Assembly: GCF_910596095.1 (NCBI RefSeq)
Contig: NC_056550.1
Coordinates: 29,051,699 to 29,115,698, forward strand
DNA from: Thunnus maccoyii
Lineage: Eukaryota > Chordata > Actinopteri > Scombriformes > Scombridae
Direction: 5' to 3'
DNA length: 64,000 bases
The notes under the pieces are model-generated. The model saw only the letters and a program-made list of their open reading frames with translations, did not search any database and was not told the DNA's origin. Of the stretch, positions 24,023 to 58,434 are shown in pieces. Within the stretch, counting starts at the first letter, position 1; each line of letters starts with the position of its first letter. A program made the position numbers and the translations under genes.

Positions 24023-24943
24023 ATGGGTAACGGGCTGAGTGAGGAGAGGAAGGAGAGGGAGCAGCGAGAACTCGACAGGTTTGTGGGTGAAATCAGTGAC
24101 GGTCCAGATGTGAAAGTCAATCAGAACATTGTGAAGTTCTGCAGTCTGGATTCTTCAGACATGCTGAGACAACACTATGAGAGGAGGATGGGGGTGTCTG
24201 ACTGCGCTCCAGACTGGATCAAGAACCTGGCGGAGAAGCTGGGCGCCTTCATGTCAGCTCCTGAGCTGGCGGGTCTCGGAGCGCTCGCCGTTGCCATCTT
24301 CATCGACATCGTGTCGTTCAGTCCACCGGAGGAGAGCATGAAGGACGCTCTGCGCTGCGTGTTTGCTGAGGAGAAAGCCTCCGAGGTCTGGGATCAGATC
24401 GATGAGTGTCTGAAGAGATGCATGATGCACATTAACGATGACCAAAAGCTGAGCAGCGACCTGCAGCGGATCGAGTGCCAGTTGAGCGCCGCGCTCACCA
24501 AGCTGAAGAACTCCATGTTGAGGGACGGCCACATGACGAACGAAGCTCTGAAGGCCTGGGTGAACGGGGCGGCCTTCCACATCCAGATGTTGATTCACCT
24601 GGTGAGACTGGGAGGGACAGTTACCTGCAACACCGTGAAGACTCTCATCTCTGTTTACCAGACTGAGCTGGACCAGCTGTTCAAAGAGCATGAGAAGATG
24701 ACTGAAAAGAAGTGCACAGTGTTGTTTAAGGTGGGTGAAATGTTTCAGTCAGTATTCGTTCTAGTGGATGAAGATGCAAAACGGCACACTCTTAATTTTC
24801 ACAACTTCCGCCGTGCAGAATTTCAGAAGCTGTATTACGATCACAGGTATGGCCAACAAAAGCGTGAGACTGAGAACCACTTCAATTACATGAGAGAGAA
24901 TCTGCAGAGTCTGGTTAGTCAGAGAGACTCCTTTAACTTCTAA
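24023..24943 (+). CDS. MGN gene 1: unrecognised N-myristoylated-type protein, 306 aa
   Basis: I do not recognise the family. The frame is intact from ATG at 24023, chosen because MGNGLSEERK fits an N-myristoylation signal (Gly2, Ser6) and because the upstream sequence is a spliced leader: acceptor TTTCAG at 23961, then a Ser-coding TCATCA run. Residues about 75-100 (ELAGLGALAVAIFIDIVSF) form one strongly hydrophobic segment; another amphipathic stretch is AAFHIQMLIHLVRLGG (about 195-210). Several conserved cysteines occur. The C-terminus ends SLVSQRDSFNF. A paralogue lies at 29033. A 5' noncoding exon with an ISRE-like site stands about 3 kb upstream. A membrane-associated, interferon-induced effector is a reasonable guess, not shown. 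Confidence 0.8.
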   Translation: MGNGLSEERKEREQRELDRFVGEISDGPDVKVNQNIVKFCSLDSSDMLRQHYERRMGVSDCAPDWIKNLAEKLGAFMSAPELAGLGALAVAIFIDIVSFSPPEESMKDALRCVFAEEKASEVWDQIDECLKRCMMHINDDQKLSSDLQRIECQLSAALTKLKNSMLRDGHMTNEALKAWVNGAAFHIQMLIHLVRLGGTVTCNTVKTLISVYQTELDQLFKEHEKMTEKKCTVLFKVGEMFQSVFVLVDEDAKRHTLNFHNFRRAEFQKLYYDHRYGQQKRETENHFNYMRENLQSLVSQRDSFNF

Positions 24944-28870: not shown

Positions 28871-29032
28871 GACATGATTAAATTGTTGCCAATTAATCTT
28901 CTGCCAATCATCTAATCGTTTCAGCTCTAGAGCGCTACGATTAACTGTGTTCATTTTGTGTGTTTCAGTGTTCCACAGATCACTACTTCATCATCATCAT
29001 CATCATCATTACCTAACCCTGACAACCACACG

Positions 29033-29935
29033 ATGGGTAACGGGCTGAGTGAGGAGGAACGAATCGACAAGTCTGTGCGTGAACTCGGCGACGGTCCAGA
29101 TGTGAAAGTCAATCAGAGAATCGTGGATTTCTGCAGTCTGGATTCTTCAGACATGCTGAGACGACACTATGAGAGGAGGATGGAGGCGTCTGACTGCGCT
29201 CCAGACTGGATCAAGAACCTGGCGGAGAAGCTGGGCGCCTTCACGTCAGCTCCTGAGCTGGCGGGCCTTGGAGCGCTCGCCATCGCCATCTTCATTGACA
29301 TTGTGTCGTTCAGTCCGGCGGAGGAGAGCATGAAGGACGCTCTGCGCTGCGTGTTTGCTGAGGAGAAAGCCTCCGAGGTCTGGGATCAGATCGATGAGTG
29401 TCTGAAGAGATGCAGGATGAACTTCACCAATAGACATGAGCTGAGCAGCGACCTGAAGCAGATTGAGGGCAAGCTTAGCGCGGCGCTCACCAAGCTGAAG
29501 AACTCCATGTTGAGGGACGGCCACATGACGAACGAGGCTCTGAAGGCCTGGGTGAACGGGGCGGCCTTCCACATCCAGATGCTGATTCACCTGGTGAGAC
29601 TGGGAGGGACGGTTACCTGCAACACCGTGGAGACTCTCATCTCTGATTACCAGAACGACCTGATCCAGCTGTTCAAAGAGCACAAGGAGATGATCAGAAA
29701 GAAGTGCAAGATGTCATTTACGGTGGAGACAGTCACTCCTTTTAGAAATACCGTTCTAGTGGATGAAAATTCAAAAGGGCACACCCTTGATTTTTTCAGC
29801 AACCCTGACAAATTTTTAGAGGCATATTATGATCACAGGTATGGTGGACAGAAGCATGAGATTCAGCAGCACTTCAGTTCCGTGAGAGAGAATCTGCAGA
29901 GTCTGGTTAGTCAGAGAGGCTCCTTTAACTTCTAA
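29033..29935 (+). CDS. MGN gene 2: paralogue of the 24.0 kb gene, 300 aa
   Basis: The frame is intact and starts MGNGLSEEER, again with the myristoylation-type N-terminus. The acceptor TTTCAG is at 28967, and the same Ser-coding leader precedes the ATG. It aligns with gene 1 over its full length. It is nearly identical from KNLAEKLGAF through ERSMKDALRC-like and FHIQMLIHLVRLGG. It differs most in residues about 8-20 (six fewer) and about 230-270 (KCKMSFTVETVTPFRNTVLV against KCTVLFKVGEMFQSVFVLV), and converges again on YYDHRYG and RENLQSLVSQR. Flanking intron and 3' sequence are also duplicated, so the copy arose by segmental tandem duplication. Function unknown. Confidence 0.8.
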   Translation: MGNGLSEEERIDKSVRELGDGPDVKVNQRIVDFCSLDSSDMLRRHYERRMEASDCAPDWIKNLAEKLGAFTSAPELAGLGALAIAIFIDIVSFSPAEESMKDALRCVFAEEKASEVWDQIDECLKRCRMNFTNRHELSSDLKQIEGKLSAALTKLKNSMLRDGHMTNEALKAWVNGAAFHIQMLIHLVRLGGTVTCNTVETLISDYQNDLIQLFKEHKEMIRKKCKMSFTVETVTPFRNTVLVDENSKGHTLDFFSNPDKFLEAYYDHRYGGQKHEIQQHFSSVRENLQSLVSQRGSFNF

Positions 29936-33291: not shown

Positions 33292-34386
33292 TTAACCAAA
33301 GAAAAAACGTTCAAATCTCTCAAACAGTGTCACACTGAACATGTCTGGTGAACATGTCATTGAAGTGTTGTTGATGGTGTAGGCGTACTGCTGCTTCAGA
33401 TAGTCCTGGTCAAACTTCCTCTCTGCAGATCTGTCACTCAGACAGGCTGTGAGATGGACGGTGGCTTTAAACCTGGAGGAGAGGAGAACCAGAGACAGAG
33501 CCAAAGTGACAACAGAGAACGGGACACTATCTAAAAAAACACTCTTTCCTGGGAGGATGAACGGGATGACGATGTGGTTTCTTCCTGGTGGACCATGTTG
33601 TTTTGACAGAGACTGAAACTCTTTCCACACGTTGTCCCTTGATGGTTCGAGAGGGCTGAGTGTGATGTTGGGAATCTTTTGGTCTCCAGCTTTCTTCATT
33701 GAGTTCCAGTGGTCGGGCAGGTTGGTGGGTCGATGGAGTTCCCCGGCAACAGAGCAAGCTGTGTCACCACAGTAAAACTCTCTGTGCTGAGGCTTCATGC
33801 GTCCTGTAGCGACACCGTAGACTGCCTTAACACTAAGATAACAGTTCCAGGGAGAATACAGGATCACGTCTGTGATGGAGGGCAGAGGCAGCAGACAGCT
33901 GGCCGGGATCATGGAGTCTCTGATGGATCCATGTGCAACAAAGGTGATATTAATGTTATTACTGTGATCCTTCTTTTCTTCCTCATCGATGTGTTCCTTC
34001 AGGAAATTAAACATGTCCACCAGTCGTAAAAAGTCCAATGACTCTGAGTTTTCTCTCAGCCATCGCAGAGTGGTTTCATTCTGGCAGTTTTCTATCACAC
34101 GCTTTATTAATGTTTTCTTTTCCATTGTCATCATCATCATATAGTCTGTAATTGTGGCTAATCTAAGAAAAAAAGAGGCATGTTAGGAACATCATTTCAA
34201 CAACTTAAAACAATGAGGTCTGATGTTACTCTCCAGTAAAATTGCTACTTAACATGTTGCAGATGTTTATGATATTTTTTTATTTTCAGAGACTCACAGA
34301 ATTGCATTGAGATGTTTTTCCATCTCTTCCAAAGCATCAGCCTGCTCTCTCTGACTCTGATCAGAGTCTGATTTACAGTCGTTCAT
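33292..34386 (-). CDS. CHAT/caspase-like family gene 1 (unrecognised fish family), 319 aa
   Basis: There are two coding exons. Exon 34298-34386 starts MNDCKSDSDQSQREQADALE; exon 33292-34162 holds the rest. Donor GTGAGT and acceptor TTCTTAG join in phase. A noncoding first exon ends at 34715. I cannot name the family. Residues NINITFVAHG, then ASCLLPLPSITDVILYSPWN and C, then YGVATGRM follow the order strand-HG, loop, strand-C that caspase-like and CHAT peptidases use for their His-Cys dyad. Both residues are also kept in the paralogue at 55573. The second half has IPFILPG and a hydrophobic SVVTLALSLVLL segment before conserved HLTACLSDRSA. Peptidase activity is inference only. An ISRE, CCAAT and TATA-like box upstream suggest interferon control. 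Confidence 0.75.
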
Positions 34387-38344: not shown

Positions 38345-40600
38345 ATTATTAACTAGAAAATGCAATTTCTGTAGAAATTGCGTGTGATTGGTGAAAGTGA
38401 ATTTAGATTGCATAACTGGAAGCAGAAGAGTATTGAAAAATCTACCAAGATTAAAATTAGCAATGGTTGGAATTGAATTTACACCCTCATGTTTGTAAGA
38501 TAGACATGCTATGCATTGAGCTAACATGTCACACAGTAACACCTGGCCAGATTTGGGTATTTAGCCTGTCAATTGCATAAAATTGACAAAAAAGCAGTTC
38601 AGTTCAGCTCAGCTCATTAAGCAGATTGACATCAGCTGTGCACTCCTGCATCCTTCGACTACTGAGTTCTGCCCTAAGTAGGACTCGAACTCACAACCTT
38701 TGGATCTAAAAGGAGTTGAAAGGTGACATGAACTTAAACCACTGGACTACTCAGACTGGATCTGTAGAATTGGAAAAGATGTATGTAACAAGAATAGCAA
38801 TCCACACTTTAGGTAATAATGTTAAAGTAAGCTAGAGAGGAATTGACTTATGGTACATGATAGAGATGGAAAGCATCTTTGCACATGACAGCAATATTAT
38901 GAGGAGCACTGCAGTGAGCAAGTATCAAACACACAACCTTGTCATCTAAGGGGTAGCTGATCATGAGAGCAGTGTTCTAAACCACTGTGCCAACAGACAT
39001 TCCCAGTAATGAGAGGAAAAAATCTCCATTTTGATGAGGAAAATGTATTTGTCTCAAACCAGAGCTTGAAGCCCAGAGATTTGTACATCATTAGTGAAAG
39101 CAAGACTAGTTTAATATGAGAATGAATGATATGTGTAAAAAGTGTTTGAAGGAAGAGAGAATCTGTAAGTTTAAGAAACTGCAGTGAAAGGAGACACACA
39201 TCCTGCAGACTGTATTGCAGTCAATGAGAACATGACAGGGACTCTCTATCAATTAAGGTTCAGATCTCAAAAACTATAAGTCCTATGTGAAATGTATTTA
39301 CATTTTGAGAGAGAGGAGGCTTGTGGCAACATACTGAGGCAAGATATGTGCTTGAGGAGTTAAAATTTCGAGAGTGACAGCAGTTTAGAAAAACATTTCT
39401 GGTCTAAAATTATCTGTGCTCTCCACTGTGCCTGATCACATGACACACTGGTGAGACCTGAAAAAGTCTGAAAACCCCCTGACTTTGGGCTTAAATTGCT
39501 GAAAAACTACATGAACTTAAACCACTGGACTACTCAGACTGGATCTGTAGAATTGGAAAAGATGTATGTAACAAGAATAGCAATCCACACTTTAGGTAAT
39601 AATGTTAAAGTAAGCTAGAGAGGAATTGACTTATGGTACATGATAGAGATGTCAAGCATCTTTGCACATGACAGCAATATTATGAGGAGCACTGCAGTGA
39701 GCAAGTATCAAACACACAACCTTGTCATCTAAGGGGTAGCTGATCATGAGAGCAGTGTTCTAAACCACTGTGCCAACAGACATTCCCAGTAATGAGAGGA
39801 AAAAATCTCCATTTTGATGAGGAAAATGTATTTGTCTCAAACCAGAGCTTGAAGCCCAGAGATTTGTACATCATTAGTGAAAGCAAGACTAGTTTAACAT
39901 GAGAATGAATGATACGTGTAAAAAGTGTTTGAAGGAAGAGAGAATCTGTAAGTTTAAGAAACTGCAGTGAAAGGAGACACACATCCTGCAGACTGTATTG
40001 CAGTCAATGAGAACATGACAGGGACTCTATCAATTAAGGTTCAGATCTCAAAAACTATAAGTCCTATGTGAAATGTATTTACATTTTGAGAGAGAGGAGG
40101 CTTGTGGCAACATACTGAGGCAAGATATGTGCTTGAGGAGTTAAAATTGTGAGAGTGACAGCAGTTTAGAAAAACATTTCTGGTCTAAAATTATCTGTGC
40201 TCTCCACTGTGCCTGATCACATGACACACTGGTGAGACCTGAAAAAGTCTGAAAACCCCCTGACTTTGGGCTTAAATTGCTGAAAAACTACAAAAGAGAG
40301 TGTCTGTAGGATAAGGGACTTCCAAACAGTTGAGTGTCAAAGTGACCAAGGTTTCAACTCAGTCCGACGGTTGGTCCCATAGACTGCCATTATAAACATT
40401 AATGTTTTAAAAAATTATATAAAATCACTGAAACATGTTACATTTCAGAAAAATACAAGCACACATCTGCTGAATGAGTTGCACAGATTGACAGTTGAAT
40501 GGTTTTTATAGCACAAAGTATGCAGCAGTTGAAACACGGCAAAAAACGTACGGAAGACGGAATAAGAATAAAGAGTGAGAAGAACAATGTGTGATTATTT
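38345..40600. repeat. Large dispersed-repeat block with tRNA-like pol III boxes
   Basis: It starts AACTAGAAAATGC with a tight palindrome GCAATTTCTGTAGAAATTGC (38362-38381). On the minus strand are three tRNA-like A/B-box pairs: TTAGCTCAATGCATAG (38509-38524) with AAATTCAATTCC (38469-38480); TAGTCCAGTGG (38739-38749) with GTTCGAGTCC (38681-38690); and TGGCACAGTGG (38982-38992) with GTTTGATACT (38921-38930). The third is present again in the duplicated unit. The class of element is unknown to me. Confidence 0.55.
38728..40291 (+). repeat. Tandem duplication of a 783-bp unit
   Basis: Unit 1 (38728-39509) and unit 2 (39510-40291) both run from ATGAACTTAAACCACTGGAC to TTAAATTGCTGAAAAACTAC. They differ at only a few positions, for example GGAAAGC/GTCAAGC, and a CTCT deletion at about 40026. 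The duplication is therefore recent or homogenised. Confidence 0.95.
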
Positions 40601-41367
40601 TCAGCAATCACACAGTAATGTAATTATTTCTGTTCCAAGTGCATTTGAGCTCCACTGGGAAAAATATACAGCTGCAGTCTCAGTTATTATTTCACTAACT
40701 GAGCAGATGATTTATACCAGTTTGTATTGCTACATCATGTCTGTTCTGTCCCTTCAGTAATAAATATTTACATTTTCTATTTGTGTTATTTCTATCAGAC
40801 ACATTCTGTCAAACCGTATTAGATATATAATCAGTATTAGATTACAGTGCATCACAGAGGTCATGTCCTCACAGTGCAGTACAGAGTATGTGTGACCTCG
40901 TCTCCTGTAAATTAGTCCCAAACACAAAATCACAATGCAGTTTTACTGGTTTTTTAAATTTGATTATTATTATATTATAGAAGTGACATACATTATATGA
41001 CTTTATAACTGTTGTTTAGTCTGTGATGGTCTGTGGTTGACAGACTGACCTCTGCTGCCATCTGGTGTTTGAGCAGTAGACGACACTCACTGATGAAGTG
41101 ATTATTACACACAGTATGAAGAACCAAAACTCATAAAACATAAGAGTTGCATTTATTTATTTATTTTAAAGAAATGATCACAGTGAGTAAAGAAAGTGAG
41201 TAACGAAATGATCAGTTACTAAATACTTAAACACCAGTGACAAATTTCTGTGTGAACAGCATCAAAATCAAATCTCAGAATTTAAACTGGTTTACACATT
41301 CAAGAACATTAATATAAGTGATAAATTACAGAAAACATCATTTTCACTCATCAGTGTTTGCAATGAC

Positions 41368-41740
41368 CGCGTTTACATGCACAAAATATTCCTACTAAGC
41401 TGTTTACATGTCTAATGAAAGCAGTGGTGCATACTTCAGTTTTCCCTATTCCTGAATCCCACATATCCCACAGAGCTGAACATAAACAGGTAAAACTACA
41501 GTAAAACCCCAGTTATGATGCACATTCTGAATGTGCTGTATACATGTCCAAAGAATGCTCCTAAAACCTGATTAACGAGTATATCACACATTTATTAATC
41601 GGAAAATGCGACATTTGGAATAAGGCCTAATTCAGAACATCCAAACAGAATATGCTGTTTACATGACCCGTATCAAATTCTGAACACTGTCATATTCGGA
41701 ATAATAGTGGAATATTAGTGTGCATGTGAACGTAGTCACT
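41368..41740. mobile_element. MITE with 19-bp imperfect terminal inverted repeats
   Basis: The left end TGACCGCGTTTACATGCAC and right end GTGCATGTGAACGTAGTCA match inversely with about three mismatches. The interior has repeated ATTCGGAATA/ATTCTGAA motifs and no coding frame. Confidence 0.75.
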
Positions 41741-41892
41741 GACAGTAAGATAGTGCATATACAAATATAACCAAATACAAAAATACATGTTTGGATTTTC
41801 TTGATAATTACGTACATTTTTTAAATTTAACTCCACCTTCAAAACTGTTAAAACAAAAAACAAAGTATCTGTTTATGCCTTGATGTTTACAA

Positions 41893-41903
41893 TATATAAA
41901 AAA

Positions 41904-41951
<48 letters not shown>
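41893..41951 (+). repeat. AT microsatellite
   Basis: (AT)n of about 50 bp. Confidence 0.95.
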
Positions 41952-41953
<2 letters not shown>

Positions 41954-41959
41954 TAAGTG

Positions 41960-43210
41960 AGTAAGGTCACTTAAATAATTCAGTGGACAAGTTAAAACAT
42001 ATAATTTAAAGTTGGAAAGGTAAAAAGGGAAAACTACTGTGTGACTTGTGAAACAAAAGCAGTGAACACTCCTGGTATTTAATGTTATTTTCATTTAATT
42101 TTGCTTTAGAATTAAAAGGAGGAAATTATTACTTCTAATTTTAAATGGTTTCTGAGTGTGTTTATTATTTCAGAGATTAAAAGCTATATAGCCTTCATAC
42201 TATATACCAACTTATATTAGAGTGTGGTCTTGTACTGTGTTAAAGGGATAGTACACTCAATTGTTTGTTACACTGTGGTCTCACAATAAGTTATATTCAA
42301 GAGGTATAGGATTTCCAAAGTGACCCAAGCTAAAAACATTAAATTAATCAGAGATAATATAACAAAGGAAATTAGGATGAAGAACTCAGGGTCCCATCTA
42401 CATAATATAGAGTGTAGACAGGCTACACATCTAAAACTCTTGTACAGTTCTGTACTTTTTTTTGGTCAAAATTTACTATATACATATGTGAAGTGTTGTT
42501 GCTTTCAAAAATGTTAAAGTTATTTACTTCTGTAAAGTTGTTTAATTCTATTATTTGTCTTTTGTTAAACAATAACTTTAGACACCATTTGAACATGCAC
42601 ATCTAATCTGTACATTTAATTCTTGGCTAGTGTTCATATGAATCTGGTGGCTGCTGTTCAGGATTTTATTAGTCTTACTGCAGTGACTCCAAACATTTTT
42701 ACATTGCATGTTTTAGAGTTTGGGTTTCTGGCCAAACTTCACCTGCTTCCAAACTGCAGAGACGGAAAAAAGTCTGAAGTTTGTTTATTTAATCGGAGAC
42801 AAAACATGTTGGTTTCACAATAAAGATGTTTGTTACACTGAAGCGTTGGTGGAGTTTTGACCTTTTTATGTTGCATTTCTAATTTTTACTTTTTCAAATA
42901 TTTCAGGGTTTCCTTTTTTCTTACTCATTTGAATACATTTTCTTCTTTTAGAAACATGTTTCAGTTTATTTTTAGCTCAATTTGAAAGAATAAAGATAAA
43001 TATTTGTTTGTCCTGTTTCCGTTTTGGCCTTTCAAACTGCACTATTTTAAGTTGCAGTTGGTTAATGATTGTAAAGATCTGTCATAGCTACATAAGGAAA
43101 TATATGACTTTCACTTAACATTTTGAACTGTTTGTTCATGAATTGAAATTAATAGATGTAATTCTGTTGAGTCAAATTATGCAGTTGAATCTGCACCATC
43201 TTTTATAACA
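41960..43210. other. Intergenic, no recognisable gene
   Basis: AT-rich sequence. AATAAA-type signals near 42822 and 42990 lie on the plus strand. The 3' UTR of the minus-strand gene starting at 44.9 kb probably occupies its right end. Confidence 0.4.
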
Positions 43211-43219
43211 CAACATTTT

Positions 43220-44899
43220 CTATTCCTCTTTCCTCTTGTATCGTTTTGTGCTCTCTTCGTCATCTGTTTCTTCTGACACCGGCTCTGCATTGAAAATGAC
43301 GGTGTAATGATCTGATATCCCGTCATCCTGGACAGTGAGATCAGAGATTTCAACATTCCTGGTGATGACCAGATCCAGAAAGTGATCACTCCGGTGTGTC
43401 GGCTCCTCTACATGCTGAACAAGATTATACCATTCCAAAAGCTGTCGAAACTCAGTAGTTGAGCTCATCATTTCATTCTCAACATGGATATTGAAGTCGC
43501 CAGTAATGATGATGCTGTTGTAACGTGCAGAAGCTTCATCCAAAAGACTTTGAAACTCTTCCAGGAATCGGTAGAACTGGGTCAAGCTGTTCAAGTTACC
43601 CGGTGGGCGATACACATTGATGAGCAGGACAGGTTGGCCCCACTCACAATGTTGCAGCTCTGCAGCAACATATTCAAAGGTTTCTGGGGCTTTTTTTGTT
43701 AGTTTTCTTTTTTCACCCTGTAACACCTGTGAATACTGAATCGCTACCCCTCCCCCTCGAGATTTCCTCACCTGGTTGACATTGAAAGTGTCTCGAGTTG
43801 CCCTCACCTGATGAAAGGAACTGAAATTTTCCGGTGAAGCTGCCCCGAGAACGTGATCTCCACCTTTCCTTTTTAACCATGTCTCAGTTGGGAGAAAGAC
43901 GTCCAAGCTGTTTTGTGTTATGAGCTCTTTGATTTCTTCTGTTTTTGCTGTCAGTGACTGAACATTTAGCAGCCCCATCCTTATTGATCCAGGAGGACTT
44001 GGGTTGGTCTCAAACTTGTGATTGTTTTCTTCATTACTGTCACTTTTTCTGGTTTTGATCAACACAACCAGCTTTTTCTTTTGCTTTCCGCCACTCTGCT
44101 TGTTTTCCTCTTCCTCTGTCTCTTCCTCACTATCACTCTCCTCATCCCCTCGATCACTCTCTTCCTCCTCACGATCTCTCTCTTTATCCCCTCGATCACT
44201 CTCTTCCTCCTCACGATCTCTCTCTTCATCCCCCCGATCACTCTCTTCCTCCTCACGATCTCTCTCTTCATCCCCCCGATCACTCTCTTCCTCCTCACGA
44301 TCTCTCTCTTCATCCCCCCGATCACTCTCTTCCTCCTCACGATCTCTCTCTTCATCCCCACTATCTCGTTTTTCGTTCATTTCTCTGGAAAGAGAATAAG
44401 AAATCACAGCAGCATATCTACGAAGCTGTTCCTCTTCTTGTTTTCTGGCGATCTCTCTGCGAAGCTGTTCCTCTTGCTGTCTTCTGGCGATCTCTCTGCG
44501 AAGCTGTTCCTCTTGCTGTCTTCTGGCGACCTCTCTGCGAAGCTGTTCCTCTTGCTGTCTTCTGGCGACCTCTCTGCGAAGCTGTTCCTCTTGCTGTCTT
44601 CTGGCAAACTCTCTGCGATGCTGTTCCTCTTCTTGTTTTCTGGCGAACTCTCTGCGAAGCTGTTCCTCTTGCTGTCTTCTGGCAAACTCTCTGCGATGCT
44701 GTTCCTCTTGCTGTCTTCTGGCGAACTCTCTGCGAAGCTGTTCCTCTTGCTGTCTTCTGGCGACCTCTCTGCGAAGCTGTTCCTCTTCTTGTTTTCTGGC
44801 GAACTCTCTGCGAAGCTGTTCCTCTTCTTGTTTTCTGGCGAACTCTCTGCGAAGCTGTTCCTCTTGTTCTCGTTGATGTTTCTCCATCTCTTCAAGCAT
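43220..44899 (-). CDS. Coiled-coil repeat protein fused to a LINE-type endonuclease domain, 559 codons
   Basis: A single open exon. The acceptor TTCACAG is just upstream of ATG in GAGGATGCTTGAAGAG. Residues about 1-155 hold eleven 13-residue repeats (QLRREFARRQQEE type). Residues 185-265 hold about five 14-residue repeats (ESDRGDEERDREEE type). Both are highly charged and helix-forming. From about residue 320 comes a complete exonuclease-endonuclease-phosphatase domain of the LINE (APE) type: LLNVQSL, TETWL, GGGVAIQYS, INVYRPPG, IIITGDFNIH, SDHFLDLVITR and DDGISDHYTVIF, retaining the Asn, Glu, Asp-Asn and Asp-His motif residues. It stops about 25 residues later with no reverse transcriptase. 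Earlier exons were not found, so a noncoding or further coding 5' exon is possible. An exapted nuclease is my reading; a transposon-gene artefact cannot be excluded. Confidence 0.75.
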   Translation of the reverse strand: MLEEMEKHQREQEEQLRREFARKQEEEQLRREFARKQEEEQLRREVARRQQEEQLRREFARRQQEEQHRREFARRQQEEQLRREFARKQEEEQHRREFARRQQEEQLRREVARRQQEEQLRREVARRQQEEQLRREIARRQQEEQLRREIARKQEEEQLRRYAAVISYSLSREMNEKRDSGDEERDREEEESDRGDEERDREEEESDRGDEERDREEEESDRGDEERDREEEESDRGDKERDREEEESDRGDEESDSEEETEEEENKQSGGKQKKKLVVLIKTRKSDSNEENNHKFETNPSPPGSIRMGLLNVQSLTAKTEEIKELITQNSLDVFLPTETWLKRKGGDHVLGAASPENFSSFHQVRATRDTFNVNQVRKSRGGGVAIQYSQVLQGEKRKLTKKAPETFEYVAAELQHCEWGQPVLLINVYRPPGNLNSLTQFYRFLEEFQSLLDEASARYNSIIITGDFNIHVENEMMSSTTEFRQLLEWYNLVQHVEEPTHRSDHFLDLVITRNVEISDLTVQDDGISDHYTVIFNAEPVSEETDDEESTKRYKRKEE

Positions 44900-45433
44900 C
44901 CTCCTGTGAACAACGACAGTGAAGATACAGTCAGAATAATTTAAAAACACCAACATCGATGGTAGCAATGTTGAAACACCAAAGCCAACTAGATTTACTT
45001 TGAAATTAGATTTCAGAAGAAATAATTGTGAACTGAATCATTTTTAAAAAGTCTTAGGCTAAGCAGTTTTGAGGACTATTTGTAGATCACAGCTACAACT
45101 TGCTGGGAGCTACTGTATGTGGTTGCTAAGGTTTGTTGGTTGCTGTGATGTTTTGAGTCATTACTACAGTATGTTTCTCTGCTTTTGCTAAAGTCATCTG
45201 GCTGGTGTTTTGTGCACTGCTAGGTGATGTCTGTGGTGTTCAGTTTAGGGTTCTGGTAGGGTGATAATTGGTCAACTGCTGAGTTGTAAGAGTTGCAGGA
45301 GGGTTTGGAGTTGCTGCTACTTCAACATGTTGCTCTGCAGATGCAAGAGTCACTTTGTTGTTAGATGGTTACTATGATGTGTGGTTTAGTGACCAAGGAG
45401 TATGGAAGGGTGCCATGACTGATTGCTAATGCT

Positions 45434-46015
45434 AGGTTCAGACCGCACGATATTTTTGACTGATAAGATGTCACTGTGTCAAATAAGACAATTATAGAGC
45501 GAAAAGTCAGACTGCATGTTGGTACCCGACCGATCTGACAGATGGAGGTGCCAGTGTTGAAGTAAATTAAAATGAAACATTAAAATTTATCATTTATTAC
45601 TCATTTCTGTACTTATCTCTTGGCTGGTGTATGTCTGTGCTGTCTCAGAGGGGACTGTCTTACTATATGTTAGATTTATAGCACATTCCTAGGTGAGTAG
45701 TGAGTCTCCTCTTTCCATCCGCTCGTGTTTCCATAGAAGCTAATATCTGTGCTGAACTCTGCCTGAAAGCTTTCCTCTGTTTCACAGTTCCACCTCCCAG
45801 CATGAGCAGTACCAGCAACAAGTTGCTCAACAAGGTGACAGATAGTGAAGAAATTCGGACTTGTCTTTTTGTTGGGACGTTCCAGATGTGGCATCAATTG
45901 TCGTCCACTATGATACACTACTTATATTGTCCTCCCTGATGCCCTTTTTCAGTCCTGATGCCCGATGTCTGTTGGGTGGAGTTGGCATTGAGCTGATATC
46001 GTGTAGTCTGAACCT
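45434..46015. mobile_element. MITE with about 19-bp terminal inverted repeats
   Basis: The left end AGGTTCAGACCGCACGATAT is mirrored by ATATCGTGTAGTCTGAACCT at the right, with two mismatches. There is no transposase. It lies between the endonuclease fusion and the first APOL-like gene. Confidence 0.8.
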
Positions 46016-46405
46016 GGCAGGAGGTTTCTAAGACATTCTTACTGGGGTGGTGATTGGTTGCTGGAGTGTTTGGTGCTGTTCTCTGATTCTAATGTCTCTT
46101 TTTCATGATGATTCGGCTTCAAGCTGCTGTGACATAACCTGCTTCAACCCTGTCATCTGCATGATCAGTATGTTCCTAACAGTTCACTGTTGGCAAACAC
46201 TTGGAGCATCATGGATGGAGATGATATAGAGGATTATAGATTATATAGTGAAGAGAATTATACTGCAGTTGTGGTTTACACATGTTTCTGTTTTGGTCTG
46301 GAGTTTTTTATCTAACATGAATCCAAACTTACTGCAGCTGCTGTTCTTTCTAAATGAGGAAATTACAAACTGTTTACTGACACCTTTCAAACCTACAGAA
46401 TCACT

Positions 46406-47548
46406 TTAATGTATTTCACAGAAAACATCATACTTCATGTCGTCAAGCTGTTTCCTCAGTGTCCTGGTCATCTCTAAGATTGCGTCAGCTGTGTCTCTCA
46501 GTGATTGGCTCGCCTCAGTCACATGATTCTTCTCGATCATGTCTTTCCAGTTGTCAATGGCCTCTGAAAGTGCAAACGCCAGTCCAACAGCTCCTCCCAC
46601 AGCCTGATGGTCAATGGGAAGAGATCAATACATTCATTTTCAGTCTTATGAGATGAAGCAAATGCACATTTATCAAACATATATTGAATAAAAACATTAA
46701 GTCAATAATTATCAATCTATTAATAACAACATTTTGACATGTTATTATAAAAGATAATTATGTATGATTGTCTGTGTCATATGTGTATAGTTAAATAATC
46801 TTACCAGGCCGCCTCCTTTAAGAAATGTTTTAAATCCAGCCGATGACACTTTTTTGATGAGTTGTTCAGCTCCTTTAGCAAACAAAAGTTTGGATGCTTT
46901 CCCTTCAGCTTGAAATGAGAAACATATTAAAACACCGGCGACTGCAGTCATGACTTCAGGCATGATTAAGTTTGGGTTGAGCTGTGGTGAATCCAGGCCA
47001 GTAAACCCTCTCGCCCCCCCCCAACCATCTCCAAATGAGCTGATGTTGATTGGCCACTTCAGTCCACTTCTTCTCGCCATGGCTCCCAGAATTTCAGTCA
47101 TGACATGTCGGTCCAGTTCATCTGGGTCTGTGAAGGAGTTCACTCCCTTCTTCTCCGCCTTCAGTTTCTTCAACAGTCGCTGGATTGTTTCTCCAATGTC
47201 GTTGCTCTTCTGTTCTATCTTCTGCGCATCTTTCATGGTGTCGCTGGATATAAGGTGCTCAGTGAGTTTAGTAGCCAGAGAGACAGTGACACCGACACCT
47301 GTATACACTCCTCCTACCAAAGCTAAAGCTGGAGCCGCAGCTCCGCCGGTGAACAAAGTGGCCACGCCGGCCCCGATCAGACATGCAGCTCCCGCCACTG
47401 ACACTGAACTGCCAATACATTCACTGCCGTTACATTTCTCCCTGAGTGACTCCAGCTCTCTGGCCAGTTTCCGTAGCTTCTCTGCACAGCGCTCCCTCTG
47501 CTCGATCCAGGAGAAAATCCGCTCCAGCAGCTGGTCAGCTGTGGCCAT
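46406..47548 (-). CDS. Apolipoprotein L-like gene 1, 313 aa
   Basis: Two coding exons, 46805-47548 and 46406-46603, are joined in phase 0 (donor GTAAGA, acceptor CATCAG). A noncoding exon at about 49865-49985 splices to TTTCAG near 47607. The protein starts MATADQLLERIFSWIEQRER with a helical ELESLREKC. Then comes the APOL-type Gly/Ala-rich membrane hairpin (SVSVAGAACLIGAGVATLFT then GGAAAPALALVGGVYTGVGV and SLATKLTEHL), and a C-terminal AVGLAFALSEAIDNWKDMIE with a heptad-like TRTLRKQLDD end, as in mammalian APOLs. APOL proteins bind lipid and can form membrane pores; human family members are interferon-induced and act against pathogens (family knowledge). Intact here. Length is close to the usual 330 residues. 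Confidence 0.85.
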
Positions 47549-47643
47549 GATGGAGGTCCTCCAACCAGAGAGCAGAAAACCTCAGCAGTGTGATCAACAG
47601 GAAGCTGAAAGAAGAAAGTTGGAGGATGCATTAGAGCAGTGGT

Positions 47644-47805
47644 TCCCAACCTTTTACCCTCAGAGACCCCTATTTTACCTTTAAACTGACGACCCCTGAG
47701 GAACTGACATATTATGGACCTTTCAAATTATATTCAGTTCAGAACAGTACAGGCTTGGTGACCCCTAGTGGGGGTCGGGACCCCCAGGTTGGGAACCAGC
47801 GGAGT
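47644..47805. mobile_element. Short hAT-like element upstream of APOL gene 1
   Basis: It begins GTGGTTCCCAACCTTTTACC and ends CCAGGTTGGGAACCAGC in inverted form. The same insertion is at 57921-58078, so it predates the APOL duplication. Confidence 0.65.
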
Positions 47806-48486
47806 AGAGGACACTTTGAATTATTTGTTGCAACCATCCATCTTCATGACAACTGAACAATATCTGCTGATGAAGACCAGGAAACACAGTTGGAAGCTCT
47901 GAAATGGACCTTGAAGTAAATTGTTACGTCTCTGGTCACAAATGAACTCTTACACAGGTCTAAAAATGCTGTAAAGCACTTCTTCTGTAACATAAGAGAT
48001 TTAAAAATTACATTTGTTTTAATGTTGACAAATAACAGACTTTTTACAAATAAGTACAAATTAAAAGGGAAAGAAAAAGTAGAGATACAAACACAAAAGA
48101 AGAAATAAAAGCTGTACAGTTAAATATATATGATAATGAATATATATGTAAAATATTTTAAATCATTTGTTAAATAAATAGACAAAGCATAAAAAGGAAT
48201 CATAAAAGTAAAACAAATACAGTACAACCCAAACCACATTATATCATCTCCTCACCCTCCCAAACTCCTTTAAGGAAAACAAAACAAAATACTGGTAACA
48301 AATAGTCGTTACAAAGCTGGTCTTCATAATCTGCATTTGGTTTAAAGTGTTTGAAAAGTTCGACTCTGTTGTTTCTACACTTTGGTTAAAGCCAAGCTGC
48401 AGCACGTACAGCTGATCTCATGGGTGTGTACAGGAAGGATTACATAAACGAGACTGTTACATATGTGATTACTGTACGTAAGTAAG

Positions 48487-48530
48487 AACCCCAGTAAGAG
48501 GTGAACGCTGGTTCACCTCTTACTGGGGTT
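48487..48530. repeat. Perfect 20-bp inverted repeat with 4-nt loop
   Basis: The arm AACCCCAGTAAGAGGTGAAC is followed by GCTG and then its exact reverse complement. It lies in the first intron of APOL-like gene 1. No flanking transposon structure is seen. Confidence 0.95.
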
Positions 48531-49864
48531 CATCACCATGGTAACATGGTGGATCAACACCGCCACCATGGACCAATCAGATCACTAGAAATAAAGAGTC
48601 ATCATTCCTACAAGATCACGACATGGACAGTCCTGAGTTATAATAAAGTGTTAAAGTAAAAATGATCAATATATATTTTTACAGGTCAGTTGTTCCATGT
48701 TTCTGGTTTTAAAACAGAGCTTCGTTCAAAACGGTCAGATCGTTTACGACACTAAACACATATTTTAATAGTTTAATAGTGATTTTACTCTCTGATTCAT
48801 CGCTGCAGTCAGAATAACATCAGACAACTGTGTGATGAAAACTGCAAATAAAAACATTAATACTGTTAATTGGCTCCATGATTATAACTCATCAGTCATT
48901 AACTACTTATACACTCTTTGCTTCAGCAACAGAAACAGTCTGACGTTACTTTAAGTTTGTAATGTGACATATTCAGATGGTTTCTAAACAGTAAAAATAC
49001 TCCCTCTATACTTCAGTCATATAGAATAATTCCTACATGTATTTTATTGATTTATGATTTCTAGTGTTTGTTGTATGATTACAGGCTCGTTTACATCTCA
49101 CTTGGTTGGATATGACTTTTTGCTTTCTGCAGGTTCTTGGTTTCACTGTTTCATCTCATATCATATGAAGAACAGCTCTGATTTATCAGCTTATAGCTGT
49201 TCAACCAGAGTTACTGAGCTGCTTGATAAAAGCTTCATAGTTCTGGTTCTGGACAGACAAAGTTGGGCTCAGTGAAGCCAGAACATCCTGGATATGTTGA
49301 ACTTGACTTATAGTTCAGGCCTCTGTTCTCAGTTCAGTTTTTGTCGTGTTGTTGTTGTTGTTTGTTAGTGAAACAAGACACAGGTGAAACACATAAGGCA
49401 ATCAACAAAGGCAGGAAAACACATGAAATAAAAGGTAACAACATATAAGGAGAGAACATTTCAAAATAAAACAGGAACTAAATTAATCAGACATCAACGA
49501 ACAAGTGACACAACACAAGGGCAGGCTGGGGGCTGAAAGACTGTGGAAGACACTGGGAGCAGGGCAGGTGAGAAGAGAAAGTGGGGAGGGAAAGGCTCAC
49601 CCACCAGACACAGAGAGTAGGAGGCAGAGGCAACACTAGGAAGACAGAGAACAGACCAGCCACTAAAAGGCAACCAAAGTAACACCAAGTCAGAAAGTCC
49701 CAGAATAAACACACAAAAGATCTTCAAAACCAACCAGCAGAATCACAATCTACGTGATCCAAGTGTGCTCAGAGAGCTGTTCACACTTTTTTATTGTATA
49801 GATTAAGAAATTTACATTTAGACCTGCAGCTGGATGAAAAAATAGAAAAATAAGCGTTTCTTAC

Positions 49865-50559: not shown

Positions 50560-52100
50560 GTGCTACATGCTAACATGCTATGGTAAGCGTATTGTGTCAT
50601 TTTCGGTTGCCAACTGTTTACTGATAGCGTTGTTGCTGCTCTCAACTCATTTGATTTTGCTATATTTCTTAATACTGTGGATAAATACCCGCTGTATATT
50701 TAAACTTTTGCTAGTTCTACACAAGCACTCTCAGCGCTGTCTCTCTTAGCGACTTTTCTCGCTAATCGCACAGTTGTTAGTTACTTTAGCTCAGCAGCTA
50801 GCATTAGCAGCTAACTTAATGATGGCTTCTCTCTCTCGCTCTCCTGCTCTCTCTTGCTCGGTGTGTCTTATGTTAAGTTATTCCTCTGCCTCCTTTAGTG
50901 ATAATGGTACGTTTAATAAGTGTAGTTTATTTGCAGTACTGGAGGCGAGGCTCAGTGAATTGGAAGCGTGGCTCCACACCATTCAAAAACACTCAGTAAC
51001 TAATGTAGTTAGCCAGCCCCCAGTATCCGGTGTGGGCCGACCTAGCGTAGCTCCCACTCCCCCGGTAGTTCCCGAGCAGCCGGGAAGCCAGGGCGGCTGG
51101 GTGACTGTCCGAAGGAAGCATAGCCCTAAGCAGAAGCCCACGGTTCACCACCAACCAGTTCATGTTTCTAACTGGTTCTCCCCCCTCAGCGACACACCTG
51201 CTGAGAAACAAACTTTGATTATTGGCAGCTCCATAGTCAGAAACGTGAAGTTAGCGACACCAGCAGCCATTGTTAAATGTGTTCCTGGGGCCAGAGCGGG
51301 CGACATTGAGTCAAATTTAAAACTGGTACGTAAATATGGTACAATTGTTATTCATGTCGGCGGTAACGATTCCCGATTACGCCAATCGGAGGTCACTAAA
51401 ATCAATGTTGAGTCAGTGTGCACATATGCAAATACAATGTTGGACTCTGTCATTTTCTCTGGACCGCTGCCTAATCTGACCAGTGATGTCATGTATAGCC
51501 ACATGTCATCATTCAACCGCTGGCTGTCGAGGTGGCGTCCAGCAAACGATGTGGGCTTCATAGATAACTGGCAGACTTTCTGGGGAAGACCTGGTCTGAT
51601 TAGGAGAGACGGCATACATCCCACTCTGGATGGAGCTGCTCTCATATCCAGAAATATGCCTGAGTTTATTAGCAGACCAAAACCATGACAACCCAGAGTT
51701 GAGACCAGGAGGCAGAGCTGCAGTCCTACACGCTTCTCTGCGCTTCCATTAGAGCAGTTACCCACCCAAAACCACATAGAGACTGTGTCTGTCCCCAAAA
51801 CCACATAGAGACTGCATCTGTCCCCAAAACCACATAGAGACTGTGTCTGTCCCCCAAACCACATAGAGACTGTGTCTGTCCCCAAAACCACATAGAAACT
51901 GTGTCTGATCCCAAAGTAAACAAAAGGGGATTCATTCATAAAAATCTAATAAAAATTAGAACCACGTCTGCAATAGTACAACAAAACAAGAGAATTAAAT
52001 GCGGACTCTTAAACATTAGATCTCTATCATCTAAAGCTGTATTAGTAAACGATTTAATCTCAGCCAGTTTACAGCCAGTTCTATTTGTTATAGTGTACTA
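50560..52100 (+). mobile_element. 5' part of an L2-like LINE (ORF1 plus start of ORF2), 3'-truncated
   Basis: A 5' UTR-like stretch (50560-50820) precedes ORF1. A 29-bp minisatellite (51765-51905, about five copies of AACCACATAGAGACTGTGTC...) follows. Then comes the beginning of ORF2: RIKCGLLNIRSLSSKAVLVN and DLIS, after which a deletion joins it to QPVLFVIVY. Having the 5' but not the 3' end is unusual for a LINE copy. Confidence 0.75.
50821..51688 (+). CDS. LINE ORF1 protein with SGNH/GDSL esterase-like domain
   Basis: The frame is open for about 288 codons from [21 protein letters not shown] short heptad-like [16 protein letters not shown] segment is followed by a linker and then an SGNH hydrolase-like domain: [15 protein letters not shown] (Ser block), [13 protein letters not shown] (Gly block), [20 protein letters not shown] (Asn block) and [19 protein letters not shown] (Asp-His block). 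This is the ORF1 type known from L2/CR1 clade elements. It is intact here although the element is truncated. Confidence 0.8.
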
Positions 52101-52104
52101 TACT

Positions 52105-52665
52105 ATGTAATACACTTTGAAAATAATATATTTAATCAGATTAAATGTAATTTAAATAAGTATACTAAAGCATAGCTTAAGTTAAATGACAGTTTCAGTA
52201 AACTTTTTCAGACTTATACTATAAAAGCACATACACTAAAGAAAAATGTACTTTTATGATGTAGTACTTAAATACAACTTAAATGCAATACAGGCATTCT
52301 TATAAAAAATATACATGGACATTTTAAAAAATAATTTTGAAATGTATGCTCTTAAAAAGTATAATAAAATGTATCTTAGATTAAGTGCATGGTAGAGTGA
52401 ACTTGCTATAAATATACTGTTAAAGCACATTAAATACAATAATTAAAAATAGATATTTAAAAAATATTACTTAAGTTAAACCTTAAAAAAACATGATATT
52501 TATACACTTTTACTAATTACGTATTTTGGAGACACCTGAAATGCACCGTTACTATACTTCAACACAAGTAGAAATGTACTTGTTTAAACTTTTAACACAT
52601 ACGTTTATGCTAAAAGTATACTTTAAGGATAGAAAAATTATTAATACTTATTTTTCACTTGGGTC
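52105..52665. repeat. AT-rich palindromic repeat block
   Basis: AGTATACT, AAGTATAATAAAATG and TTTTTCACTTGGG are dispersed in mirrored order, suggesting a decayed MITE. No coding sequence. Confidence 0.35.
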
Positions 52666-53689: not shown

Positions 53690-54130
53690 TTAAAGCTAGA
53701 ACACAGTCATCAAAGTAGCCTCCTTTTGCAGATATAACAGGCGAACACACTGGTGAAATTCTTTCTACAATGGAAATCAAATATTGTTCAGAAAGTTCTT
53801 CCCAACATTGTTTGAAGTTCCTACAAATGTGTTGCACTTGCAGGTTGTTTTGCTTTCACCCTTCAGTCCAGTTCATCCCAAACCAGCTCAGTGGGGTTTA
53901 GCTCTGGAGACAGCGCTGGCCATCGACATAATTTGAAGCCTACCATCTTGATCTTTTCCTCTGAGGTAACTGTGACAGTGTGCAGGTATGTTTGCTGTAT
54001 GATGAACCTCTGAGCCAAAATCTGCAAAATGCTATTTTAGTCCCTTTGGTCCAGAGTTCCAGTCGATCTGGATCCAGCTAAAGAGCCTCAGATCATCACG
54101 CTTCCTCCTCCAAGCTTTCATACAGACAAA
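53690..54130. mobile_element. Tc1-like transposon-derived fragment
   Basis: AACCAGCTCAGTGGGGTTTA-GCTCTGGAGACAG-GCTGGCC and CAAAGTAGCCTCCTTTTGCA are phrases common in fish Tc1-family remnants on this strand. No frame remains. Confidence 0.45.
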
Positions 54131-55572: not shown

Positions 55573-56470
55573 CTAACCAAACATAGCTTTAAAAGCTCTG
55601 TAGAGGTCCGGGTTCAGGTGCACATCATGGAGTGAAGAGTGCATTAAAGTGTTGTCGATGGTGCAGGCGTACTGCCACTCCAGATACTCCTGGTAAAACT
55701 TCTGTCCAGCAGATCTGTCACCCAGACAGGCAGCGAGATGGACGGTGGCTTTAAACTTGGTGAAAAGCAGCACCAGAGACAGAGCCAAAGTGACGACAAA
55801 GAATGGGACACTTACTGAAGAAGCTTTCTCTGCTGGGAGGATGAACGGGACAATGACGCGGTTTCTTCCTGGTGGACCATATGTTTTATGGAGAAACACA
55901 AACCTTTCCCATGCTCCGTCCTTTGGTGGATACACAGGGCTGAGCATGATGTTGGGAATCCTTTGGCCGCCAGCATTCTTCATTGAGTTCCAGTGGTTGG
56001 GCGGGTTTTTGAGCTGATGACCTTTATTACGAACCGGGCAATATCGATTAGCACAGTAAAACGCTCTGTGTTGAGGCATCATGCGTCCTGTAGCAACACC
56101 GTACGCTGCATCACCATTGATGACACAGTTCCAGGGAGAATACAGGATCACGTCTGTGATGGAGGGCAGAGGCAGCAGACAGCTGGCCGGGATCATGAAG
56201 TCTCTGATGCATCCGTGTGCAACAAAGATGATGTCAATGTTGTCACTGTGGTTCTTCTTTTCTTCCTCATCAATGTATTCCTTCAGGTAACGAAACATGT
56301 CCAGCAGATAGAAGAAAGCTTCAGACTCTGAATTTTCTATCAGCCATCGCTTCATAGTTTCATCCTTACAATGTTCTATCGCAAACTCAATCAGTGTCCT
56401 CTTGTCATAAAAGCTCCTGTTGCTGTTTTCAACTGCTTGTTGAACTCTGGCCAACCTCTCATACACCTTT
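55573..56470 (-). CDS. CHAT/caspase-like family gene 2, 3' coding exon (298 codons)
   Basis: One open exon. The acceptor CCTACAG precedes AAAGGTGTATGAG, and the frame starts in the same splice phase as exon 3 of the copy at 33292. It reads KVYERLARVQQAVENSNRSF, then NIDIIFVAHG, ASCLLPLPSITDVILYSPWN and C, and YGVATGRM, so the putative His-Gly and Cys positions are kept. Then come NPPNHWNSMKNAG, GPPGRNRVIVPFILP, a hydrophobic FFVVTLALSLVLL, and HLAACLGDRSA near the end. Compared with gene 1 the N-terminal 25 residues are unrelated, while the middle is very similar. No upstream coding exon with a start codon was found. It may use a distant exon or be a partial gene. Confidence 0.7.
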
Positions 56471-56683
56471 CTGTAGGAGGAATTGAATGGAAAAAAAAAA
56501 TCAATTCTACTAATGCATTTTAAATTAATTTATTTAATAATAATAATGATAATAATGGTTCAGCAGTAGATCCTCATTTATCTGAGAATATGGACAGAAA
56601 ACTTTAGCAGCATGATTCAGATTTTCAGAAAAAAAGAAACAATTAATGATTTAATTTTTTAGTGTCAAACCTACAGAATCACT

Positions 56684-57825
56684 TTAATGTATTTCACAGA
56701 AAACATCATACTTGATGTCGTCAAGCTGTTCCCTCAGTGTCCTGGTCATCTCTAAGATTGCGTCAGCTGTGTCTCTCAGTGATTGGCTCGCCTCAGTCAC
56801 ATGATTCTTCTCGATCAGGTCTTTCCAGTTGTCAATGGCCTCTGAAAGTGCAAACGCCAGTCCAACAGCTCCTCCCACAGCCTGATGGTCAATGGGAAGA
56901 GATCAATACATTCATTTTCAGTCTTATGAGATGAAGCAAATGCACATTTATCAAAAATCTAATGAATAAAAACATTAAATCAATAATTATCAATCTATTA
57001 ATAACAACATTTTGACATGTTATTATAAAGGATAATTATGTATGATTGTCTGTGTCATATGTGTATAGTTAAATAATCTTACCAGGCCGCCTCCTTTAAG
57101 AAATGTTTTAAATCCAGCCGATGACACTTTTTTGATGAGTTGTTCAGCTCCTTTAGCAAACAAAAGTTTGGATGCTTTCCCTTCAGCTTTAAATGAGAAA
57201 CATATTAAAACACCGGCGACTGCAGTCATGACTTCAGGCATGATTAAGTTTGGGTTGAGCTGTGGTGAATCCTGGCCAGTAAACCCTCTCGCCCCCCCCA
57301 ACCATCTCCAAATGAGTTGATGTTGATCGGCCACTTCAGTCCACTTCTTCTCGCCATGGCTCCCAGAATTTCAGTCATGACATGTCGGTCCAGTTCATCT
57401 GGGTCTGCAAAGGAGTTCACTCCCTTCTTCTCCGCCTTCAGTTTCTTCAACAGTCGCTGGATTGTTTTTACAATGTCGTTGCTCTTCTGTTCTATCTTCT
57501 GCGCATCTTTCATGGTGTCGCTGGATTTAAGGTGCTCAGTGAGTTTAGTAGCCAGAGAGACGGTGAGACCGACACCTGTATACACTCCTCCTACCAAAGC
57601 TAAAGCTGGAGCCGCAGCTCCGCCGGTGAACAAAGTGGCCACGCCGGCCCCGATCAGACATGCAGCTCCCGCCACTGACACTGAACTGCCAATACATTCA
57701 CTGCCGTTACATTTCTCCCTGAGTGACTCCAGCTCTCTGGCCAGTTTCCGTAGCTTCTCCGCACAGCGCTCCCTCTGCTCGATCCAGGAGAAAATCCGCT
57801 CCAGCAGCTGGTCAGCGGTGGCCAT
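56684..57825 (-). pseudogene. Apolipoprotein L-like gene 2, frameshifted copy
   Basis: Exons 57083-57825 and 56684-56881 match APOL-like gene 1 at nearly every base, introns included. Exon 57083-57825 is 743 nt against 744 in gene 1, because a run of nine C on the plus strand (about 47014 in gene 1) is eight C here (57292-57299). The frame shifts after SFGDGWGG and stops soon after, at about residue 193 of 313. Substitutions elsewhere are mild (for example LISSD to LKSSD, GETIQ to VKTIQ). A noncoding first exon remains at 62203. It could be a pseudogene, an allele, or a homopolymer sequencing error. Confidence 0.75.
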
Positions 57826-57920
57826 GATGGAGGTCCTCCAACCAGAGAGCAGAAAACCTCAGCAGTGTGATCAACAGGAAGCTGAAAGAAGAAAGTTAGA
57901 GGATGCATTAGAGCAGTGGT

Positions 57921-58078
57921 TCCCAACCTTTTACCCTCAGAGACCCCTATTTTACCTTTAAACTGACGACCCCTGAGGAACTGACATATTATGGACCTTT
58001 CAAATTATATTCAGTTCAGAACAGTACAGGCTTGGTGACCCCTAGTGGGGGTCGGGACCCCCGGGTTGGGAACCAGCG
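57921..58078. mobile_element. Short hAT-like element upstream of APOL gene 2
   Basis: Same as the element at 47644-47805, with one visible change (CCCCCGGG for CCCCCAGG). Confidence 0.65.
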
Positions 58079-58434
58079 GAGTAGAGGACACTTTGAATTA
58101 TTATTAATCATCCATCTTCATGACAACTGAACAATATTTGCTGATGAAGACCAGGATTCATAAAAGTAAAACAAATACAGTACAACCCAAACCACATTAT
58201 ATCATCTCCTTACCCTCCCAAACTCCTTTAAAGGAAAATAAAACAAAAAACTGGTAACAAGTAGTAATGATTCATAACACATTAACAATTCATACTGAGA
58301 ATTCAAAGTGATCAACTAATACAGAAACACAACATTAGCAAATAAATAAGACAGTAACAAAACAACAACAATGAAACAAATAAGAATCCATATGTATGTA
58401 TGTGTATATGTGGGGTACATTCAGAGACTAAAAA

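Follow-up and report, generated by a model that had tools for sequence, protein, structure and literature searches.

The closest described relatives of the exon reported here are the APE-type endonucleases of LINE ORF2 proteins in the Jockey superfamily (L2, CR1, Rex1, and kin), with which it shares PF14529 as best Pfam family and the blocks LLNVQSL, TETWL, YRPPG, GDFN(IH), LDLVIT, and SDHY. Unlike in these ORF2 proteins, the endonuclease domain of the exon ends at a stop codon without a reverse transcriptase (RT), and the same frame upstream holds two charged minisatellite tracts; the exon lacks the order of an autonomous LINE ORF2, in which the RT comes after the endonuclease. Host genes derived from transposons, such as the SETMAR transposase fusion and the exonised LINE L2 in CD274-L2A, likewise show transposon and host sequence meeting at a splice site; however, the cases of this type in the consulted portion of PMC8616336 are transposase domains or a LINE-derived exon, and not an RT-less LINE endonuclease domain. 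The transposon-derived host proteins described in the portions of the literature consulted come mostly from DNA transposases. After target-primed insertion, a defective LINE copy has usually been truncated at the 5' end and retains its 3' end, according to the consulted portion of PMC2881922.

The exon lies in a window of 64,000 nucleotides from Thunnus maccoyii (contig NC_056550.1), which is the whole stretch of DNA analysed and to which all coordinates refer. It occupies 43220-44903 on the minus strand; the first ATG at 44899 opens a frame of 559 amino acids, which is closed by a TAG at 43220-43222. The stop-to-stop frame (43220-45037, minus strand) has 605 codons, and the extra 46 codons fall in T-rich intron-like sequence. 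From the N- to the C-terminus, the exon consists of E/R/Q-rich repeats, a short non-repetitive piece, an acidic tract, a basic-leaning linker of 45 residues, the endonuclease, and a charged tail. The original prediction of an uninterrupted 559-codon exon at 43220-44899, in which two in-frame minisatellites are joined to an endonuclease domain, is thus borne out by the minus-strand frame with its TAG, the tandem-repeat arrays, and the Pfam matches. The feature is real and unusual.

The LINE-type APE endonuclease domain is encoded at 43289-43975 (minus strand; residues 309-537). It matches PF14529 (Endonuclease-reverse transcriptase) over residues 425-534 with an E-value of 6.7e-11 and 42.5 bits (cut-off 27.4), and PF03372 (endonuclease-exonuclease-phosphatase) over residues 311-531 with 1.1e-6 and 29.1 bits (cut-off 24.5). 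Since the PF14529 match exceeds its cut-off, the domain belongs to this family by sequence. N312, E339, Y430, D468, N470, D509, S529, D530, and H531 are all present, and we take these residues to be the catalytic set of known endonucleases. All five LINE/APE signature blocks that had been claimed (LLNVQSL, TETWL, YRPPG, GDFN, and SDHY) were found in the translation, and the frame does end cleanly as predicted, with the TAG 27 residues past SDHY. The charged C-terminal tail (43223-43288, minus strand) is 22 residues long, with a basic end containing KRYKRK, followed by the stop codon. The domain is presumably on the L2/CR1 side of the superfamily, a placement based on motif spellings and not on a tree. 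The R1Bm endonuclease (2ei9) and an exodeoxyribonuclease (2jc5) can be aligned with the exon around the GDxN and SDH motifs, although sequence matches to solved endonucleases of the exonuclease-endonuclease-phosphatase fold are not significant (best E 0.06-0.07; R1Bm E 1.2-1.5). The single-sequence structure model is poor (pLDDT 36.5, pTM 0.35) and too weak for a test of the fold; Foldseek with this model gave no match at E 0.001 or better, and an AP endonuclease (6lpm) appeared at E 0.28. By tblastn, the window contains one copy of the endonuclease; the other three matches have E 0.12 or worse.

The endonuclease stretch (43223-44095, 291 codons) contains no in-frame stop, versus 15 and 19 in the other two sense frames and 11, 13, and 18 in the antisense frames. 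Among 2000 first-order Markov sequences of equal length, in which the longest open stretch over six frames was taken, none reached 291 codons and the longest was 265 codons. The openness of this stretch is therefore beyond chance, as would be expected of a domesticated transposon gene, although 312 codons are also open in a neighbouring LINE ORF1. The G+C content by codon position (0.535/0.347/0.458) has a coding-like pattern, and it separates nothing decisively.

That the endonuclease stands without an RT, as originally predicted, agrees with the sequence downstream of the stop at 43220, where no RT signal was detected. The RT motif [FYA]xDD is absent from the three sense frames of 41500-43222, each of which has 35-43 stops. 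The minus strand at 40044-42885 has 16 ORFs of 45 amino acids or more; the six that were scanned match no Pfam family at E 1. An ordinary 5'-truncated LINE insertion would look different from this exon, in which the endonuclease side is present and the RT side undetected. The retention of the 5' (endonuclease) side with loss of the RT side is the reverse of ordinary 5' truncation. Such a copy is out of the ordinary because target-primed insertion usually leaves 5'-truncated copies, as stated in the consulted part of PMC2881922. A target duplication had been named as a sign of a young LINE insertion; the longest direct repeat flanking the endonuclease is 9 nt, compared with a shuffle mean of 8.5 and a maximum of 11, so that flanking repeats are not above chance, although short duplications would escape this comparison.

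The N-terminal half of the exon is dominated by the two minisatellites. The 39-nt array (44417-44866, minus strand; 11.5 copies, 93% matches, 0% indels) codes for 13-residue E/R/Q-rich units, and residues 1-161, which are made mostly of these units, have fractions of E 0.27, R 0.27, and Q 0.20 and likely form a long charged helix. The 42-nt array (44124-44359, minus strand; 5.6 copies, 96% matches, 0% indels) codes for the strongly acidic tract, with a net charge of -36 across 87 residues. Both periods are divisible by three, and neither array has indels. However open this part of the frame may be, its openness says little because the repeat stretch (44107-44905) lacks stops in three of the six frames; the open repeat stretch is a by-product of repeat composition. 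Among 11 units of the 39-nt array there are six variable columns, of which four change the residue and two are silent as read by eye. Since these columns are evenly spread, two per codon position, purifying selection is not visible in the 39-nt units. A GIMAP-type GTPase exon was considered as a source of the N-terminal repeats, and visual inspection of the minus-strand ORFs with 45 or more amino acids showed none. Elsewhere in the window, a 1.4-kb minisatellite with a period of 41 and about 34 copies is located at 7194-8595.

A splice acceptor-like region precedes the exon at 44904-44950 (minus strand), with a branch-like CTGAC (A at -27), a pyrimidine-rich stretch (70% pyrimidine), no AG between the branch motif and the border, and a CAG|G border that places the exon start at 44903. 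When a branch motif, no intervening AG, and at least 70% pyrimidine were demanded, two sites were found on the minus strand and three on the plus strand, where 0.6 per strand are expected from five simulated strands; this threshold is the value of the 44903 site itself, and the rule is thus partly post hoc. Without the pyrimidine threshold, four minus-strand and six plus-strand sites were found versus 5.4 expected, which is no excess. By eye, the acceptor is good, as originally predicted. The second acceptor-like site on the minus strand, at 16860, falls within a polyQ-rich gene in the left part of the window and could belong to a true exon. No donor scoring at least 5.5 is present on the minus strand at 44905-49000, about 4 kb upstream, and no upstream exon was found; the scoring uses approximate frequencies, and the donor of the ApoL-like gene itself scores only 5.0. 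Since no such donor lies between 44905 and 49000, we infer that the frame opens either in a more distant upstream exon or, if the first exon is non-coding, at one of the two ATGs directly following the acceptor. Downstream of the stop, the first AATAAA (42965-42970, minus strand) is about 250 nt away and is a weak signal, being one of nine ATTAAA/AATAAA sites in 1500 nt. No Rfam match was found in the window.

In the neighbourhood, about 1.5 kb separates the exon from the end of an upstream ApoL-like gene on its strand; the match of this gene to PF05461 (8e-4, 19.4 bits) is below the cut-off of 25.9, and the APOL locus named in the original prediction is putative. The ApoL-like genes form a minus-strand pair (46400-47882 and 56678-58156) with 98.0% identity over 1483 nt, and the duplication stops just past the ApoL stop codon, so that the endonuclease exon is not duplicated. 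Besides this pair, two more gene pairs are duplicated in the window. The plus-strand ORFs at 24023-24940 and about 29030-29932 are related and both begin with MGNGLSEE, a possible N-myristoylation start; that at 24023-24940 has no Pfam match. The minus-strand ORFs at 33295-34182 and 55576-56529 are also related (82% DNA identity along a portion of the ORFs); their sole match, to the Stv domain (PF21527, E 0.01), is weak and falls below the threshold. Two near-identical 92-codon minus-strand ORFs (38945-39220 and 39728-40003), 783 nt apart, suggest a recent tandem duplication. A DDE transposase fragment at 53866-54036 (PF13358, 1.8e-5, below cut-off) is probably a Tc1/mariner-type relic.

The 5' part of another LINE is present on the plus strand at 50750-52107, 6 kb from the exon. 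Its esterase-type ORF1 (50750-51688) has 312 open codons and matches PF13472 with 7.8e-7 and 30.2 bits, short of the cut-off at 32.9; the original claim that every LINE copy nearby is broken therefore needs a slight correction. Following ORF1, the start of an ORF2 reads LLNIRSL and soon breaks off by eye; neither Pfam nor blastp gave a match for it. The original prediction had taken the preservation of the exon as a sign of selection. The endonuclease is indeed open beyond chance, but preservation is weak evidence of selection because this ORF1 is equally preserved and carries no claim of domestication.

Relatives of the exon were searched for in viral, phage, plasmid, and prokaryotic collections, in which fish DNA is scarce or absent, so that misses there say little about fish. 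With that scope, the search for relative loci in the viral contigs found none, and tblastn of the plasmid and phage collections gave no relative. A degenerate GDFNIHV pattern returned ten loci in the viral contigs, of which tblastn identified none as an endonuclease relative (best E 0.082), and a two-block pattern returned two loci in prokaryote genome contigs, neither matching at E 1 or better. No domesticated LINE endonuclease gene is named in the titles or abstract openings covered by the literature search, although such a gene may still be in print.

Taken together, the exon may provide all or most of the coding sequence of a chimeric host-type gene in which a LINE endonuclease has been captured, a reading to which we assign a probability of about 0.45. 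This is the best-supported account, and the next is an accidental fossil, which is tentatively entertained as somewhat less probable. According to the latter, a LINE fragment lies beside two minisatellites and is open through youth or luck, the charged-repeat frame is accidental, and no functional protein is made; the 5' part of an L2/CR1-like ORF2 would have been inserted or rearranged and its 3' half deleted, a history that shares the same tentative standing. Joining the repeats to the endonuclease in frame would cost only about one chance in three, given the three stop-free frames of the six, and the LINE part at 50750-52107 also seems to be without its 3' side, so such fragments do arise in the window. 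The failure to find either a donor of at least 5.5 at 44905-49000 (minus strand) or an upstream exon is likewise as a fossil would have it. However, the usual LINE defect keeps the 3' end (consulted part of PMC2881922), opposite to what the exon keeps, and the acceptor and a stop near the domain end require separate coincidences. The flanking direct repeats, 9 nt at longest, also give a fossil insertion no signal above chance, though short duplications would be missed. As for the domestication originally proposed, the anatomy is as claimed, the endonuclease side is kept without an RT, and acceptor, frame, and domain end agree; the missing upstream exon and the repeats without purifying selection count against it, as do the early stop on splicing from the ApoL-like donor, the open ORF1 of the LINE 6 kb away, and the number of acceptor-like sites, which is no higher than expected when the pyrimidine threshold is dropped.

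It is improbable that the frame belongs to an unusual or non-autonomous LINE family with charged repeats before the endonuclease in one ORF. The region 5' to the endonuclease does vary widely in this superfamily, as far as the consulted portion of PMC4120745 describes it, and a weak alignment suggests that the R1Bm endonuclease also has a short acidic tail after it. However, if the frame were the element's own, many copies would be expected, and the endonuclease is single copy in the window (other three tblastn matches at E 0.12 or worse), with neither an RT nor a LINE 3' end detected downstream. Still less credible, and in our estimate very improbable, is a reading in which the upstream ApoL-like gene uses the exon as an alternative last one and yields an ApoL-endonuclease fusion. 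The shared strand and the distance of about 1.5 kb would allow it, but the ApoL intron is in phase 0 (exon end 46805, next start 46603) whereas the endonuclease exon needs an incoming phase of 2, and no such exon follows the second, 98% identical ApoL copy at 56.7-58.2 kb. Because a phase 0 donor would meet a phase 2 acceptor, a direct fusion would stop after three codons; the junction of the ApoL donor with the exon reads GAG GAT GCT TGA by eye, and this candidate was rejected.

If the exon is part of a chimeric host-type gene, the captured part would be the 5' end of an ORF2 from an L2/CR1-like LINE (Jockey superfamily), with only the endonuclease retained. The transcript may start at an upstream exon, be spliced at 44903, and be translated from one of the first two ATGs, at 44899 and 44887. 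The predicted product would have a long charged helical arm, an acidic tract, a nuclease domain, and a basic tail; the nuclease domain may have Mg-dependent nicking or phosphodiesterase activity of the exonuclease-endonuclease-phosphatase kind, and the basic tail could serve nuclear import. Given such a gene, its product is likely nuclear and combines a charged helical arm with a nicking domain; the steps from transcript to function are all inferred. Without an RT, this protein would be unable to copy itself into DNA, and its likeliest use would be DNA binding or nicking for the host, perhaps in competition with the LINE machinery at target sites. In the fullest form of this proposal, which we consider unlikely, a vertebrate host gene has a catalytically competent LINE endonuclease as its sole enzymatic domain, carried on a charged helical arm and an acidic tract, and acts as a nuclear DNA-nicking protein or a competitor of LINE target-site cleavage in a rapidly duplicating gene cluster that may be immune-type, as originally suggested.

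If the exon is only a fossil, it would be a useful example of how minisatellites can link transposon frames into exons that resemble those of genes and so mislead annotation. If the host gene is true, the nicking half of a retrotransposon would be recruitable alone, and the locus would offer a handle on the host use or blocking of target-primed insertion.
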